Of a stretch of 64,000 nt of DNA, positions 2,107-51,189 are shown one piece after another; within the stretch, counting starts at the first letter, position 1; every line of letters begins with the position of its first letter. Origin of the DNA: Thermosynechococcus sp. HN-54 (GTDB lineage: Bacteria > Cyanobacteriota > Cyanobacteriia > Thermosynechococcales > Thermosynechococcaceae); the NCBI RefSeq assembly GCF_023650955.1, contig NZ_CP098039.1, forward strand, positions 2,356,001-2,420,000, read 5' to 3'. The notes beneath the pieces are model-generated. The model had not been told where the DNA came from. It saw only the letters and a program-made list of their open reading frames with translations, and ran no database searches. The position numbers and the translations under genes were made by a program.

Positions 2107-3995
<1,889 letters not shown>

Positions 3996-3999
<4 letters not shown>

Positions 4000-6173
4000 G
4001 AAACAGAGGCAGCAGGAGTTCCTAAGCGTCGCATGTCCTGAAGGGCTTCCTTGGCAGAGGGATAGCGATCGCTAAAGTTAAATTTCACCATTTTATTCAG
4101 CACTGCCGCTAGAGCCTCACTGACTGTAACACACTGTTGCCAATCCACTTCACCCGTGCGCGGATCTCGTGGTAGATCACGAGGTTTAATGCCCGTCAAG
4201 GCTTGCAGCACAATCATGCCCACCGCGTAAATATCGCTGCTGAGGGTGGGCTGTCCAGAGAGTTGTTCGGGGGGAGCGTAGCCCATTGTGCCAATAACCA
4301 CGGTGCTGCCTTGGGTTTTCTCCACTTCTTGGGGTTGAATTTGTTTCACCGCTCCAAAGTCAATCAGCACCAGCTTGCGATCGCTAGCACGGCGAATAAT
4401 ATTATCGGGCTTAATATCGCGGTGAATGACATAGTGACTGTGGACAAAACTCAGCACCTCCAAGATTTCCCGTAGGAGTTGAATGGCCTCAGCTTCCGTG
4501 TGTTTGCGTTTCAGTTCCTCACTTAGGGAAGCACCCTCAATAAACTCCTGTACGAGGTAGAATTCCTGATTTTCCTCAACGTAGGCGAGCAAGAGGGGAA
4601 TTTGATCGTGGCGTCCTAGCTTCTCAAGAATTTCTGCCTCAGTATTAAACAGCCGCCGCGCCACCTGCATAAAGCGCTCGTCGGTGCGTCCCGGTCGCAA
4701 ATGCTTGACCACACAGAGGGGATTTCCGGGTCGTTGGGTATCCTGAGCCAGATAGGTGCGACCAAAGCCCCCCGACCCCAATACTTTTTGGATTTTGTAG
4801 CGACCGCTGAGGAGAGAGCGGGGTTTGCCTGTAATTTCTGTGGGTTGCTGGAGCGCGGCATTGAGGGCTGCCGTGTCTTCGGCCATCAGCGATCGCAACA
4901 GCGCAAGGGCTTTTTCCTGCTCCTGCACTTTTTCTTTGAAGGATTTTTGCTCCTGCTGGGCTTGATAACTCACATAGCCAACCATGCCCACACTGCTGAG
5001 CACCAGAGCGATCGCCGGCGGCACCACTGGAATCCAGCCACTCCCCATCACAAAAATGCCAAACCCACCGCCAAAGAGGACAATGAGTCCCCCACCTACG
5101 GCTACACCCAACCACAGCGGTTGCCGCAACCACCAGCCAAGGACACTCCCCACCCCCGCCCACAGCAGGATCCACCCCAGCACCAGCGGCAGCGGCCAGT
5201 ACCAAATGGGGTCTTCTCCGTCTAGCGCCGCACTCAAAAATTGACTCACCATTTGCCCATGGACAACCACCCCCGGCATTTGCTGGGTCACCGCATCACT
5301 GCCACTATAGGGAGTGAGAAAAATATCCTTGATACTCGGGGCAGACACACCAATCAAAACCACGCGATCGCGAATGAGGTCTTCGCTCACCCGCCCGGTC
5401 AGTACATCCGTCAGGGAAACCGTTGGTCCCACCGCTGTCCGCGAGCGGTACTTGAGCAGGGTTTGCATGCCGCGATCGTCGACCCCCACATAGCCACCGG
5501 CATCACTGGTGAGCAGGGGAAAATGGACATCATTGAGGGTCAAACCATTGTCATCCAGTTTGATGGTGTGTGTTGGATCCTGATCGAGGTAGCGCAGTGC
5601 CAGCATCAGGGCAAATGAAAAGGGCGTTGTACACCGCTGTGCCTTGGGATTGCTGATCACAAACAGATTGCGGCGAATAACGCCATCATTATCGAGGGGA
5701 ATATCGGCAAAGCCCACCCGTTCCGGCACCTGTGCTGTGGCAATACTCGGTGGCGGTGGCACTTCCGGTTGCTCGGCGGTTTCACCCGTTGATTTGCACA
5801 CCGGGATAATACGGGGATTGATGCGAATCATGTTTTGCAGCGCCTCGTGGCCAGGAGGATGGGGCAAATCGCGGAAAATATCAAGGCCAATGGCACGAGG
5901 GCTAGCCGCATTGAGACGGGTGAGTAGATCGGCCACCGTGGCATCCGGCAGCGGCCACGTTTTTTGCGCTTGAATATCCTGCTCAGTGATCAGCACGGTC
6001 AGGATGCGTGGATCAGGATCGCGGGCGGGTTGCGATCGCACATAAAAATCATAAAGACCGAGTTCTGATGGCTGTAGCAGTCCCAGTTGGCGAACGCCAA
6101 TTACCACAGCAGCCACTCCCAGCGTGGTTGCAACTATAGGCATCGGCAGCCACTTTGGCCAGACGTAGGGCAC
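3996..6173 (-). CDS. CHASE2-domain transmembrane serine/threonine protein kinase
   Basis: 725-residue sensor kinase of the Hanks type. A short N-terminal hydrophobic segment (about 10-30) is followed by an extracytoplasmic CHASE2 domain (about 35-315), three transmembrane helices (about 324-348, 352-375, 380-402), a short coiled-coil linker and a kinase domain (about 458-715). Kinase motifs are complete: glycine loop GSGGFGRTY (466-474), VVK lysine at 490, HRDIKPDN with Asp586, DFG at 605-607 and APPEQ near 633. It should therefore be active and respond to an unknown periplasmic signal. It is coupled to the downstream FeoA-like gene through an ATGA overlap. Confidence 0.93.
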
Positions 6174-43757: not shown

Positions 43758-45020
43758 GTGAGTGATCCGCTGACGGCGGCGCTAAGTCCCTATGCCCGCT
43801 TTGGGGTGCGCCTTGGGCTTGAACCCATTCAAGCGCTGCTGAGTGTTTTGGGATCTCCCCAGTTACAGGTGCCCTTGATCCACGTTGCGGGGACCAATGG
43901 CAAAGGCTCGGTGTGTGCCTACTTGGATAGTGTTTTGCGGGCGGCGGGCTATCGAACGGGGCGTTATACGTCGCCCCATCTGTTGAGTTGGTGTGAGCGC
44001 ATCTGTGTGCAGGGCGAACCCATTGCTCCTGAAACGTTCTTGGCGCTGATCCAGAAAATTGAGTCGGTCTTGCCACAGCTTGCCTATCCTCCCAGTCAGT
44101 TTGAGGTGGTGACGGCGGCAGCATGGCTGTATTTTGCCCAGCAGCAGGTGGAGGTGGCGGTAATCGAAGTGGGCTTAGGCGGACGCTTGGATGCCACGAA
44201 TGTGTGTCAGCCCCCTTTGGTGAGTGTGATTACCTCTATTGGTTGGGATCATTGGCAGCGGTTGGGCAATACCTTGGGGGCGATCGCGGGCGAAAAAGCG
44301 GGTATTCTCAAGCCGGGAGTGCCAGCCGTCATTGGCCCTGTTCCCGCGGAGGCAAAGGGAGTGATTGCCCAGCGTCTAGAAGCCTTGGCGTGCCCAGCGA
44401 TCTGGCCAGAACCGGCACAGTGGTCTGCTGATCGGTCTGGGTGGGCGACTTGGGGTGGCATCGAGTACCCCTTGCCTTTGGCGGGAGAGATGCAGTTAAC
44501 CAATTCAGCGATCGCGATCGCCACGCTACAACAGTTACAATCTCAAGGCTGGCAGATTTCCCGAGAAGCGATTCAACAGGGAATGGCACAAACCCGCTGG
44601 CCGGGACGACTGCAATGGTTACAGTGGCAAGGGCGCAAACTGCTCATTGATGGTGCCCACAATGCTCCTGCGGCCGCCTACCTACGGCAATACGTGGATC
44701 AACTGGGCTGGACAGAGGTGACTTGGGTAGTGGGGATGCTAGCCAATAAGGATCATGAAGGGATTCTCAAACATCTCCTGCGAGGGGGCGATCGCCTGTG
44801 GTTGGTGCCTGTACCGGATCACGCTAGCGCTGACTTAGAGGAATTGAAGGCACTTGCCTACACCTGTTGCCCTGAGTTAGGGGAATGCCGCTTTTTTAAG
44901 GATGTGACTGAGGCACTCGATAGGGCGGGCGATCGCTGTGTGGTCTGTGGCTCCCTTTACTTAATTGCTCGCGTTTTGGGGGCGATTGCAAGTAAAGATT
45001 CGCAAGCAACTAGACTGTAG
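43758..45020 (+). CDS. folC: Folylpolyglutamate synthase / dihydrofolate synthase
   Basis: Adds glutamate to folates. 420 residues of the Mur ligase fold, with P-loop HVAGTNGKGSVCAYL, the ATP/Mg segment VEVGLGGRLDATNV (seen as VIEVGLGGRLDATN), SVITSIGWDHWQRLG, KAGILKPG and DGAHNAPA. The start is GTG at 43758, just after the MORN stop; an earlier ATG at 43710 lies inside the MORN gene. Confidence 0.95.
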   Translation: MSDPLTAALSPYARFGVRLGLEPIQALLSVLGSPQLQVPLIHVAGTNGKGSVCAYLDSVLRAAGYRTGRYTSPHLLSWCERICVQGEPIAPETFLALIQKIESVLPQLAYPPSQFEVVTAAAWLYFAQQQVEVAVIEVGLGGRLDATNVCQPPLVSVITSIGWDHWQRLGNTLGAIAGEKAGILKPGVPAVIGPVPAEAKGVIAQRLEALACPAIWPEPAQWSADRSGWATWGGIEYPLPLAGEMQLTNSAIAIATLQQLQSQGWQISREAIQQGMAQTRWPGRLQWLQWQGRKLLIDGAHNAPAAAYLRQYVDQLGWTEVTWVVGMLANKDHEGILKHLLRGGDRLWLVPVPDHASADLEELKALAYTCCPELGECRFFKDVTEALDRAGDRCVVCGSLYLIARVLGAIASKDSQATRL

Positions 45021-48686: not shown

Positions 48687-49136
48687 ATGAATAACCTCAG
48701 CCAACGTTACCTACGTCTGTGCCAAGCCTATAGCCAACTGGCAGAACGCTATACCAAACTCGATATTGACCACATGACGCTGCGGGAAAAGCTCGTCCCC
48801 TTTCTGATGGCGTTCAAATATTACAAGCAGATGAGTGAGCAACTCGTTGCTGAAAAAGAAGCGCTGCAGCGAGAACTCAATGACCTGCGCGATCGCTACC
48901 AATTGCTCGTGAGTCAAAATGGCGGTGCCCCTGTCAATGAGGAACTCCTCAATGCCCTTGCGGAAGCAGAGGAGCAAATGGGACTGATCGAAGAAACCCT
49001 CAAGGAACAGGAGACTGACCCGGATCCCAACCTGCTTCCCATTGAAAAGCAATTGCTGGAAGAATATACAAAGGGGAGTGGTGATTTTCAGGCGCTGCTT
49101 CCCCAATCGTTGAGTCACTCCGGGATTACTGCCTAG
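48687..49136 (+). CDS. Coiled-coil protein of unknown function
   Basis: 149 residues, starting MNNLSQRYLRLCQAYSQLAE. Heptad-rich helices run from about 5 to 110, followed by an acidic tail. No catalytic motif. The stop codon is directly followed by the ATG of the sensor kinase (no gap), so the two are cotranscribed. It may be a scaffold for that kinase. Confidence 0.7.
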   Translation: MNNLSQRYLRLCQAYSQLAERYTKLDIDHMTLREKLVPFLMAFKYYKQMSEQLVAEKEALQRELNDLRDRYQLLVSQNGGAPVNEELLNALAEAEEQMGLIEETLKEQETDPDPNLLPIEKQLLEEYTKGSGDFQALLPQSLSHSGITA

Positions 49137-50297
49137 ATGCTCTGGCCAGCCAGTGAAGAATTTGCTGCCCTCTGTCGTACACAATTAGAACTTGTTGTCA
49201 ACAACTTGGGTGCCTCTTCACTGGCGGTCTATCTTAGTGAAACCCTCAATGACTCCCCCTCATGGTCTCCCGTTGCTGTCTATCCAGAGGCGGCACCCCC
49301 CCTGAGCTTACCGCTTCCCCCGACACTACCACCGCCAACACAAGCAGCAGAGACGCCTTTAAGCCATTACCCTCAACAGGTCGTCTCGTCCTTGGCCAAT
49401 CAACTGATCCTGCCCCTAATGTACCAAAATTGGGTGCTGGGGGTACTGGTGGCACAGCGGCAACACCGTCCTTGGTTGGCAGCAGAGCAGGCGCAGTTGC
49501 AACAGGTGGCACAAACGCTGGCGATCGCCTGCGTCCTTGATCAACGGCAACAGTGGCTCAGCCATGCCTCCTCTGCCCAGACCCTAGAGCAACAGCAGCA
49601 ACGCTTTGATGATCTGCTCCACCAACTGCGCAATCCCGTGGCCGCCATTCGCACCTTTGTCAAGCTCTTGCTCAAACGGTTGGAACCTGATCACCAGGGG
49701 CGCCCCCTCGCGGAGGGTATTGCCAAGGAAACAGAACGGCTCATGGCATTGTTGGAGGACTATCGCCAACAGCGCAATGATATTCCCGCCCTCACGGGCA
49801 GCCAGCCCCTATCCCTTGTGGGTAAACCCCTCGATCTAGCTGAAACCCTCTCCCCCTTGATCACCGCCGCCAAAGCTCGTGCGGAAATGGAGGACAAAAC
49901 CTTTGTGGTCGAAATGTCACCTCAACTCCCCCCGATCTGGCTAGAGGAACGGATGCTTCAGGAAGTGGTGGGGAATCTGTTAGACAATGCCTTCAAGTAC
50001 ACCCCCAAAGGCGGCACAATTGGTTTACGCTTGACCCTCATGCCCGCAGTCTTAGAATTAACCGTTTGGGATACCGGCTGTGGCATTCCTCTGGACGTGC
50101 AGTCACGGCTCTTTGAACGGGGCTACCGCGGGATTCAAGCCGACAGTGGGATTGAGGGCAGTGGTCTAGGCTTGGCGATCGCTCAGGATCTGCTGCGTCC
50201 CTATGGGTTGAGTTTACAGGTCACCAGTCCCTATGCGGGCGATCGCGGTACGGCTTTTACCTTGGCGATTCCCTTACCAATGAAGGTGGAACGATGA
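49137..50297 (+). CDS. GAF-domain sensor histidine kinase, Hik2/CSK-like
   Basis: 386-residue soluble kinase. A GAF-like domain (about 5-135, with a Pro-rich insertion near 52-70) is followed by a dimerisation helix with HQLRNPVAAIRTFVKLLLKR, phosphoacceptor His162. HATPase_c has VVGNLLDNAFKYTPKGG, DTGCGI and GSGLGLAIA. The HQLRNP variant of the H-box and the compact GAF-HK layout resemble cyanobacterial Hik2, related to the chloroplast sensor kinase, which senses photosynthetic redox state; that identity is inference. Coupled by ATGA to the next gene. Confidence 0.85.
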   Translation: MLWPASEEFAALCRTQLELVVNNLGASSLAVYLSETLNDSPSWSPVAVYPEAAPPLSLPLPPTLPPPTQAAETPLSHYPQQVVSSLANQLILPLMYQNWVLGVLVAQRQHRPWLAAEQAQLQQVAQTLAIACVLDQRQQWLSHASSAQTLEQQQQRFDDLLHQLRNPVAAIRTFVKLLLKRLEPDHQGRPLAEGIAKETERLMALLEDYRQQRNDIPALTGSQPLSLVGKPLDLAETLSPLITAAKARAEMEDKTFVVEMSPQLPPIWLEERMLQEVVGNLLDNAFKYTPKGGTIGLRLTLMPAVLELTVWDTGCGIPLDVQSRLFERGYRGIQADSGIEGSGLGLAIAQDLLRPYGLSLQVTSPYAGDRGTAFTLAIPLPMKVER

Positions 50298-50884
50298 GTG
50301 CTCTGAAACAGCGTCTTACCAAGATCATCAGTCAGGGGCATCAATTCCTTGTCCTAGTCTTTGCCCTACCCCTATTGATCTCGGCCACAACGGGAATCGC
50401 CCATCGTCTTGGGCGCAGTTGGTTTGGGCTATCTAAAGACTTTGGGCGGGCGATGATGACCCTCCATGAAGGCCGCTATCTGGGGGAATGGGGCGTACCC
50501 CTATACGTTTTAGTCCTTGGTCTGGGATTGCTGGGCATTATTGCCACGGGTCTGGGTCTATTGTGGGGGCGATCGCTCCCTGCGAAGTGGTCGGCACGGC
50601 GGGTGCATCATCTCTTGGCGGCTATTGCCGCGTTGCCCTTGCTGGTAAGCGCCACCACAGGAATTGCCTATCGCCTTGGGCGCAATTGGTTTGGCCTCTC
50701 CAAGGAACAAGCGGCAATTTTTCTGCGCCTACATCAGGGAACCTATTGGGGGGAGGCGGGGCGTCCCTTTTATGTTCTCCTGGTGGGGCTGAGTGTGCTG
50801 ACACTGCTAGCTACTGGGCTTTCAATGCTGACAATCCTGCGACAGTTGCCTCTCTGGCGTCCTAGGGTGACCCCGGAGACCTAG
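50294..50884 (+). CDS. Internally duplicated PepSY-TM-like membrane protein
   Basis: 196 residues with four transmembrane helices built from two similar halves. Half one (16-93) has LPLLISATTGIAHRLGRSWF; half two (105-182) has LPLLVSATTGIAYRLGRNWF. Over 24 aligned residues only three differ. His16/His105 and His58/His147 fall at equal distances in each half, as expected for a heme-binding helical bundle. It resembles PepSY-TM proteins. The start overlaps the kinase stop in an ATGA. Function unknown; a redox or membrane sensor partner is possible. Confidence 0.7.
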   Translation: MSALKQRLTKIISQGHQFLVLVFALPLLISATTGIAHRLGRSWFGLSKDFGRAMMTLHEGRYLGEWGVPLYVLVLGLGLLGIIATGLGLLWGRSLPAKWSARRVHHLLAAIAALPLLVSATTGIAYRLGRNWFGLSKEQAAIFLRLHQGTYWGEAGRPFYVLLVGLSVLTLLATGLSMLTILRQLPLWRPRVTPET

Positions 50885-50990: not shown

Positions 50991-51086
50991 ATGGCGCTGA
51001 CCGATACCCAAGTTTATGTTGCCCTTGTGATTGCTCTACTGCCTGCGGTGTTGGCATTTCGGCTCTCGACGGAGTTGTACAAGTAG
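50991..51086 (+). CDS. psaM: Photosystem I reaction centre subunit XII (PsaM)
   Basis: 31-residue single-helix thylakoid protein at the monomer interface of trimeric photosystem I. MALTDTQVYVALVIALL is followed by PAVLAFRLSTELYK and TAG; this matches PsaM as I know it from Thermosynechococcus. Shine-Dalgarno AAAAGGAG lies 6-7 bases before ATG. The gene is too short for ordinary length filters. A hairpin terminator follows. Confidence 0.97.
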   Translation: MALTDTQVYVALVIALLPAVLAFRLSTELYK

Positions 51087-51146: not shown

Positions 51147-51189
51147 GCGGTTCCCGATGTTGTTCCTAAGAGAGGGGAGCTGCTTTTTT
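51147..51189 (+). terminator. Terminator of psaM
   Basis: GCGGTTCCC (51147-51155) pairs with GGGAGCTGC (51175-51183), including two G-U pairs, followed by TTTTTT. It lies 60 bp after the psaM stop. Confidence 0.6.

Follow-up and report, generated by a model that had tools for sequence, protein, structure and literature searches.

Three forward-strand genes lie head to tail within the window, the 64,000-nucleotide stretch of Thermosynechococcus sp. HN-54 DNA that we analysed. The first (48687–49136) encodes a 149-residue coiled-coil protein that matches no Pfam or NCBIfam family above its curated cut-off. Its TAG stop is followed, without a gap, by the ATG of hik2 (49137–50297), which encodes a soluble 386-residue sensor kinase of GAF-HisKA-HATPase architecture, and the stop of hik2 overlaps the start of the third gene (50294–50884), encoding a 196-residue membrane protein, in an ATGA at 50294–50297. 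A sequence-only reading of this stretch had described the coiled-coil gene as immediately preceding the kinase, and the kinase and membrane protein as translationally coupled; both descriptions hold. The next gene 3' on the same strand (50991–51086), which we take from its sequence to be psaM (photosystem I subunit XII), follows the membrane-protein gene in 11/11 genus genomes. A terminator-like site is present in the window 3' of psaM (51162–51180) and none is present between the membrane-protein gene and psaM, which may share the transcript of the hik2 operon. A promoter scan of the locus was uninformative (three found against 2.1 expected), and no RNA family reached its gathering score between positions 45000 and 55000. 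The membrane-protein gene is under strong purifying selection, with dN/dS values of 0.06–0.10 in all six comparisons with genus relatives, and hik2 gives similar values (0.09–0.12).

The Pfam GAF, HisKA and HATPase_c domains of the kinase all score above cut-off. In T. elongatus BP-1, Hik2 is tlr0195, for which a primer table has been published and whose product has been purified (PMC5904244). All four tlr0195 primer annealing sequences in that table are found where expected in the G028 orthologue, and because they map to this counterpart of the window kinase, the latter is, on sequence grounds, a Hik2 orthologue, where the earlier wording had been Hik2-like. Hydropathy analysis of the genus orthologues (L175–L177) finds no hydrophobic transmembrane segment. 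Replacement of Cys19 in Synechocystis Hik2 lowers Fe-S binding (PMC6949291), and from its position we infer that Cys13 of the window kinase (codon at 49173–49175) is the equivalent of this Fe-S ligand. Cys13 is kept in 27/28 aligned Hik2 rows, made up of the window gene and the 27 of 30 loci with a usable open reading frame, one of which (L043) is the window gene again and is thus counted twice. This Fe-S-linked cysteine is missing from the orthologues seen in family f24 (L069/L162 and L158), which speaks against its having a universal role. An Fe-S cluster and a response to plastoquinone have been demonstrated for Synechocystis and plant Hik2/CSK proteins; these are water-soluble, their contact with plastoquinone in the membrane has been raised as a question, and they have been proposed to associate with a membrane protein (PMC6949291).

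The 196-residue protein is an internal duplication, as the sequence-only reading had proposed. Its halves give an ungapped 74-residue alignment with a BLOSUM62 score of 224, against a mean of 28.9 (sd 5.2) and a maximum of 52 among 500 shuffled pairs, and the two units recognized by a unit HMM (residues 16–89, at 50339–50560, and residues 104–178, at 50603–50827) are 52% identical. His16 and His105 occupy equal unit positions, as do His58 and His147, and the other two histidines (37 and 106) are not conserved. When 37 doubled proteins are aligned, 16 columns are invariant, including those of H16, H58, H105 and H147, while most of the sequence drifts. Across 80 distinct proteins, all 44 N-units and all 44 C-units keep both unit histidines, as do 34/36 single units; each histidine taken alone is present in 35/36 single units, where one deviating row is truncated and another has Asp. 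The histidines are thus conserved in orthologues and at matched positions. Since hydrophobic segments may resemble each other, we considered whether two hydrophobic hairpins could by chance give the appearance of duplication and pairing. This candidate was rejected, and we give it next to no credence: the real score is far from the best shuffled one, and a 104-unit tree groups the C-units from the 37 doubled proteins as a single clade (99/96), with N-units and single units requiring two changes each.

An AlphaFold2 model of the protein is a four-helix structure (pLDDT 94.7, pTM 0.87) in which His58 lies in a short helix, 48–59, and His147 in another, 137–148, each immediately ahead of its unit's second long helix. 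The description of the unit as two helices therefore stands for its transmembrane part and has to be extended by an interfacial helix that carries His58 or His147. Loop charges of +3, +4 and +3/-1 on one side and +5/-3 and +4/-2 on the other weakly favour a cytoplasmic location of both termini, and H16 and H105 would then face Hik2. A Foldseek search with the model gave no match at E <= 0.001. With the window protein as query, phmmer found no solved relative up to E 1, and a profile search for solved relatives gave matches at E >= 0.39 alone, which we took as chance. The protein was likewise unmatched in a defence-system library and in the plasmids searched.

The family of the small protein, left unnamed by the sequence-only reading, is the PepSY_TM core. 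The Pfam model PF03929 matches the window protein with 25.2 bits (E 1.8e-5), short of the gathering cut-off of 28.8, and a PF03929 search of genome G000 gave no match at E <= 0.001. Three of the 11 first-copy genus genes pass the cut-off (G019, G023 and G026; 30.3–30.8 with stretches summed), two fall below it (G022 and G024) and the remaining six are not among the matches listed; the five intact second copies in the genus pass, as does a single-unit relative (L150, at 29.3). In 19 canonical cyanobacterial PepSY_TM proteins the four histidine columns are occupied by histidine in 18, 18, 17 and 17 members. With realigned profiles, H58 and H105 fall on the second and third canonical histidines in a single match (probability 95.8), and H58 is one residue out of register if realignment is omitted. 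The profile alignment also places H147 on the fourth canonical histidine, and the placement of H16 on the first is weak (probability 7.6 and, by the unit profile, 10.6). A canonical PepSY_TM protein in turn aligns with FoxB (7abw) with four histidines on four histidines, at E 4e-10 overall and E 0.12 for the stretch with the fourth histidine alone. The connection to FoxB was made solely through this canonical cyanobacterial protein, and FoxB is absent among the Foldseek and VIA structure-search matches listed for the window protein. FoxB holds two hemes, each through two conserved histidines (PMC13038864). The periplasmic PepSY domains are absent from the window protein, and the short helices 48–59 and 137–148 stand in their place. 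From the family match and the model together, we conclude that the window protein is the four-helix core of the PepSY_TM family of FoxB-like diheme ferrireductases minus its PepSY domains, the two domains being replaced by 12-residue helices. We refer to it as mini-PepSY_TM.

Because its histidines match those of a family with solved hemes, we think it quite probable that mini-PepSY_TM carries electrons across the membrane by means of two hemes, and the heme-ligating bundle first suspected from the histidine pattern is now likely a diheme one. Heme binding, histidine pairing and electron transfer are all predicted here from what is known of the family. A heme close to the cytoplasmic side, assigned from the loop charges, would be bound by His16 (50339–50341) and His105 (50606–50608), and a second heme, close to the outer (periplasmic or lumenal) side, by His58 (50465–50467) and His147 (50732–50734); together the two could let electrons cross the membrane. 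Alternatively, mini-PepSY_TM could tether Hik2 or the coiled-coil protein to the membrane, or offer it a docking site there, and transfer no electrons, its histidines being structural or metal-binding. Such a role would suit a kinase that has no hydrophobic transmembrane segment and for which a membrane-protein partner has been proposed. The histidine pattern, however, tracks the heme-ligand histidines of the family and is invariant amid sequence drift, and we consider a pure anchor improbable.

Relatives of mini-PepSY_TM were found in 216/388 cyanobacterial genomes searched, in a doubled form of about 190 residues and a single-unit form of about 100 residues. Since the C-units of doubled proteins form one clade, the doubling appears to be an old trait that cyanobacteria share, and a recent duplication within the genus was rejected on the same grounds. 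In a second tree that includes the halves of canonical proteins, 46 mini units (15 N, 15 C and 16 single) form one clade (99/96), and the C-units are not one clade (three changes). The halves of mini proteins are also more alike, with 33–56% identity in 44 proteins vs 24–37% in 16 canonical cores cut around their histidines. Together these observations argue that the mini form doubled independently and is not a trimmed canonical protein; an origin by mere loss of the PepSY domains is disfavoured by the separation of mini units from canonical halves. Both inferences about the history of the repeat are limited by few columns and by long branches that meet. In family f24, the single-unit genes (L134, L138, L141 and L124) group with units of doubled forms in the trees and are perhaps halves left after loss of one unit; three of the four lie directly 3' of a response regulator/kinase pair. 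In L150, the one such locus whose surroundings were scanned, the single-unit gene lies among rplS, map and gltX, and its flanking clusters recur in 10–11 similar loci.

The triplet of coiled-coil gene, hik2 and mini-PepSY_TM gene is intact in 11/11 genus genomes. The coiled-coil gene abuts hik2 with no gap in every one of them, and hik2 overlaps the mini-PepSY_TM gene by 4 nt in nine (ATGA in eight, GTGA in one); the other two have a gap of 2 nt if the aligned start is used. Conservation of the triplet across cyanobacteria, which the sequence-only reading had proposed as a check, holds within the genus, and the triplet was not found outside it. The coiled-coil and hik2 pair is kept in two sister genera, with the coiled-coil gene 14 nt (G016) or 1 nt (G018) upstream of hik2, and the third gene is different: in G016 it encodes a 406-residue protein and overlaps hik2, and in G018 it encodes a 264-residue protein, starts 5 nt after hik2 and is possibly SurE-like, judging by the start of its product. 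The PepSY relative of G018 is on a separate contig from the pair. Because other genes follow the pair in these genera, Hik2 does not generally need mini-PepSY_TM. Nor are the genes neighbours elsewhere: none of 66 other PepSY loci has a Hik2 orthologue within 5 kb, in flanks of which about 620 of 660 kb were covered because some contigs end early. G155 (L172; 4897–6309 and 12807–14210) has a doubled gene, accompanied by a PKHD gene, and about 6.5 kb away, in the opposite orientation, a Hik2 orthologue; by a rough estimate this proximity is within chance. Relatives of the coiled-coil protein occur in 64/376 cyanobacterial genomes, and in G167 and G255 the gene is away from hik2. No second PepSY gene was found in genome G000, and the second copy in G027 (L026) looks degraded, being a fragment with an in-frame stop beside which a PKHD gene was not found.

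Other sensor kinases are frequent beside the doubled relatives. A same-strand histidine kinase lies within 5 kb at 16/33 doubled loci vs 3/33 single-unit loci (5 on either strand; Fisher p 0.0008), where the doubled set excludes first genus copies and the single-unit loci were picked, non-randomly, from the listed matches. Kinase-like match counts in 25 of these genomes give a rough expectation of about 7%. The loci are not independent, since L164, L167, L169 and L173 represent a single second locus in different members of the genus, and 17/33 doubled relatives have no kinase nearby; the immediate neighbours at seven such loci (eight proteins) share no theme. Thirteen of the 16 neighbouring kinases have two hydrophobic segments, two have one and one has none. 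These kinases are not Hik2. Four response regulators and five kinases, drawn from five loci of which one is single-unit, come closest to RppA and RppB, respectively, in NCBIfam, with all nine below the curated cut-offs (208–243 of 250; 230–303 of 400). Because Hik2 phosphorylates RppA, as it does Rre1 (PMC5904244, PMC13421787), the Hik2 and RppB-like settings touch the same regulator family, a parallel that is suggestive only.

A PKHD-type Fe2+-dependent dioxygenase is encoded in 12/36 doubled loci, a small lipoprotein-like protein with GEEGG/GERGE repeats in 9/36 and an RTX protein in 5/36. In five genus genomes the PKHD gene stands beside a kept second copy, and none was found in G000. These genes recur as a module that consists of an OmpR-type regulator, a two-TM kinase (RppA/RppB-like where tested), an RTX protein with GESGESGE repeats, the lipoprotein-like repeat protein, the PKHD dioxygenase and the doubled mini-PepSY_TM. 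All five partners are present at L104, L106, L107 and L109, and the module is partial at L113, L114, L125, L164, L167, L169 and L173. At L114 (G026; about 3234–4700) the module kinase is split into two reading frames of 360 and 101 residues, perhaps by a frameshift. The repeat protein may, as a guess, be a substrate of the dioxygenase.

How mini-PepSY_TM might serve the cell can be read in two ways, which we hold to be about level. Tentatively, it is a compact diheme b-type cytochrome that is made together with Hik2 and may be its membrane electron contact, a tie drawn from gene order. The two proteins would be produced together, probably from one transcript with translational coupling, and mini-PepSY_TM would carry electrons to or from the [3Fe-4S] centre of Hik2, with the quinone pool or an outer-side partner at the other end. 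The coiled-coil protein, Hik2 and mini-PepSY_TM may in this way form one membrane redox-sensing unit. The triplet in 11/11 genus genomes, the 4-nt overlap in nine of them, the conservation of Cys13, the frequent sensor kinases beside doubled relatives elsewhere and the published proposal of a membrane-protein partner for the water-soluble Hik2/CSK speak for such a contact; against it, the hik2 link was found in one genus, the kinases beside relatives elsewhere are other kinases, 17/33 doubled loci are without one, the f24 Hik2 is without the cysteine and the PKHD genes suggest metal handling.

With comparable and equally tentative weight, the same diheme carrier could have a job of its own, such as reduction of iron or copper on the outer side, and be co-transcribed with hik2 while its product does not touch the kinase. 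Confinement of the triplet to one genus and a third gene that varies beyond it speak for a passenger, and the PKHD Fe(II) dioxygenase neighbours, taken with the known functions of PepSY_TM proteins, favour metal chemistry: the characterised members named in the cited papers are described as periplasmic iron-siderophore or iron reductases, and for CrpH a possible copper reductase activity has been speculated (PMC13038864, PMC8238504). A separate job sits less well with the tight coupling kept throughout the genus, with the sensor-kinase neighbourhood that recurs among doubled relatives, and with the lack of the PepSY domains, which in FoxB shape the cavity for the substrate. A plain electron relay is favoured instead by the coupling to Hik2 and by the absent substrate domains. 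A wider form of the Hik2-contact reading, in which mini-PepSY_TM is the missing membrane relay from the plastoquinone pool, or an outer-side partner, to the Hik2 Fe-S cluster and plays the same role beside the RppA/RppB-like systems, seems to us rather unlikely; it would turn a compact transmembrane heme wire into an accessory that recurs with redox or metal sensors of cyanobacteria.

The Hik2-contact reading makes mini-PepSY_TM a testable candidate for how a soluble Hik2 could contact the membrane. Hik2, which is retained in chloroplasts as CSK, is reported to sense the redox state of plastoquinone while being water-soluble (PMC6949291), and Hik2 from the genus of this candidate has been obtained in purified form (PMC5904244). 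More broadly, a PepSY_TM core minus its PepSY domains, occurring singly and in tandem across cyanobacteria, is a predicted minimal transmembrane heme unit. Among the titles and abstract openings of the papers listed by our searches we found no description of the mini-PepSY_TM protein or of its coupling to hik2, and the word PepSY is absent from a 2026 review of cyanobacterial redox signalling (PMC13421787).

Diheme cytochrome b subunits are membrane helix bundles carrying hemes. Fumarate reductase FrdC, hydrogenase cytochrome b and FdnI are among the top VIA rows for the model, at identities of 5–9%. The Z scores of these cytochrome b rows (7.0–8.9, with unrelated rows among them at 7.1–7.3) are below the helical-bundle level of about 13, as is that of the best VIA row (Z 8.9, rmsd 4.3, 158 aligned), and are too low for a claim of common fold. 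The RppA/RppB two-component system, the best NCBIfam match of the tested neighbours elsewhere, is absent beside the window gene. The window kinase shares with Hik2/CSK (slr1147; tlr0195) the GAF-HisKA-HATPase architecture, the conserved cysteine and the tlr0195 primer matches; we found no difference in the kinase itself, and what is unusual is its coupling to a membrane-protein gene. With the PepSY_TM proteins, represented by FoxB of Pseudomonas aeruginosa (7abw) and CrpH, mini-PepSY_TM shares four TM helices, four conserved histidines and an internal two-fold repeat. It differs in having no PepSY domain between helices 1 and 2 or between helices 3 and 4, and in its length of 196 residues, compared with 358–512 residues in the 19 canonical proteins.
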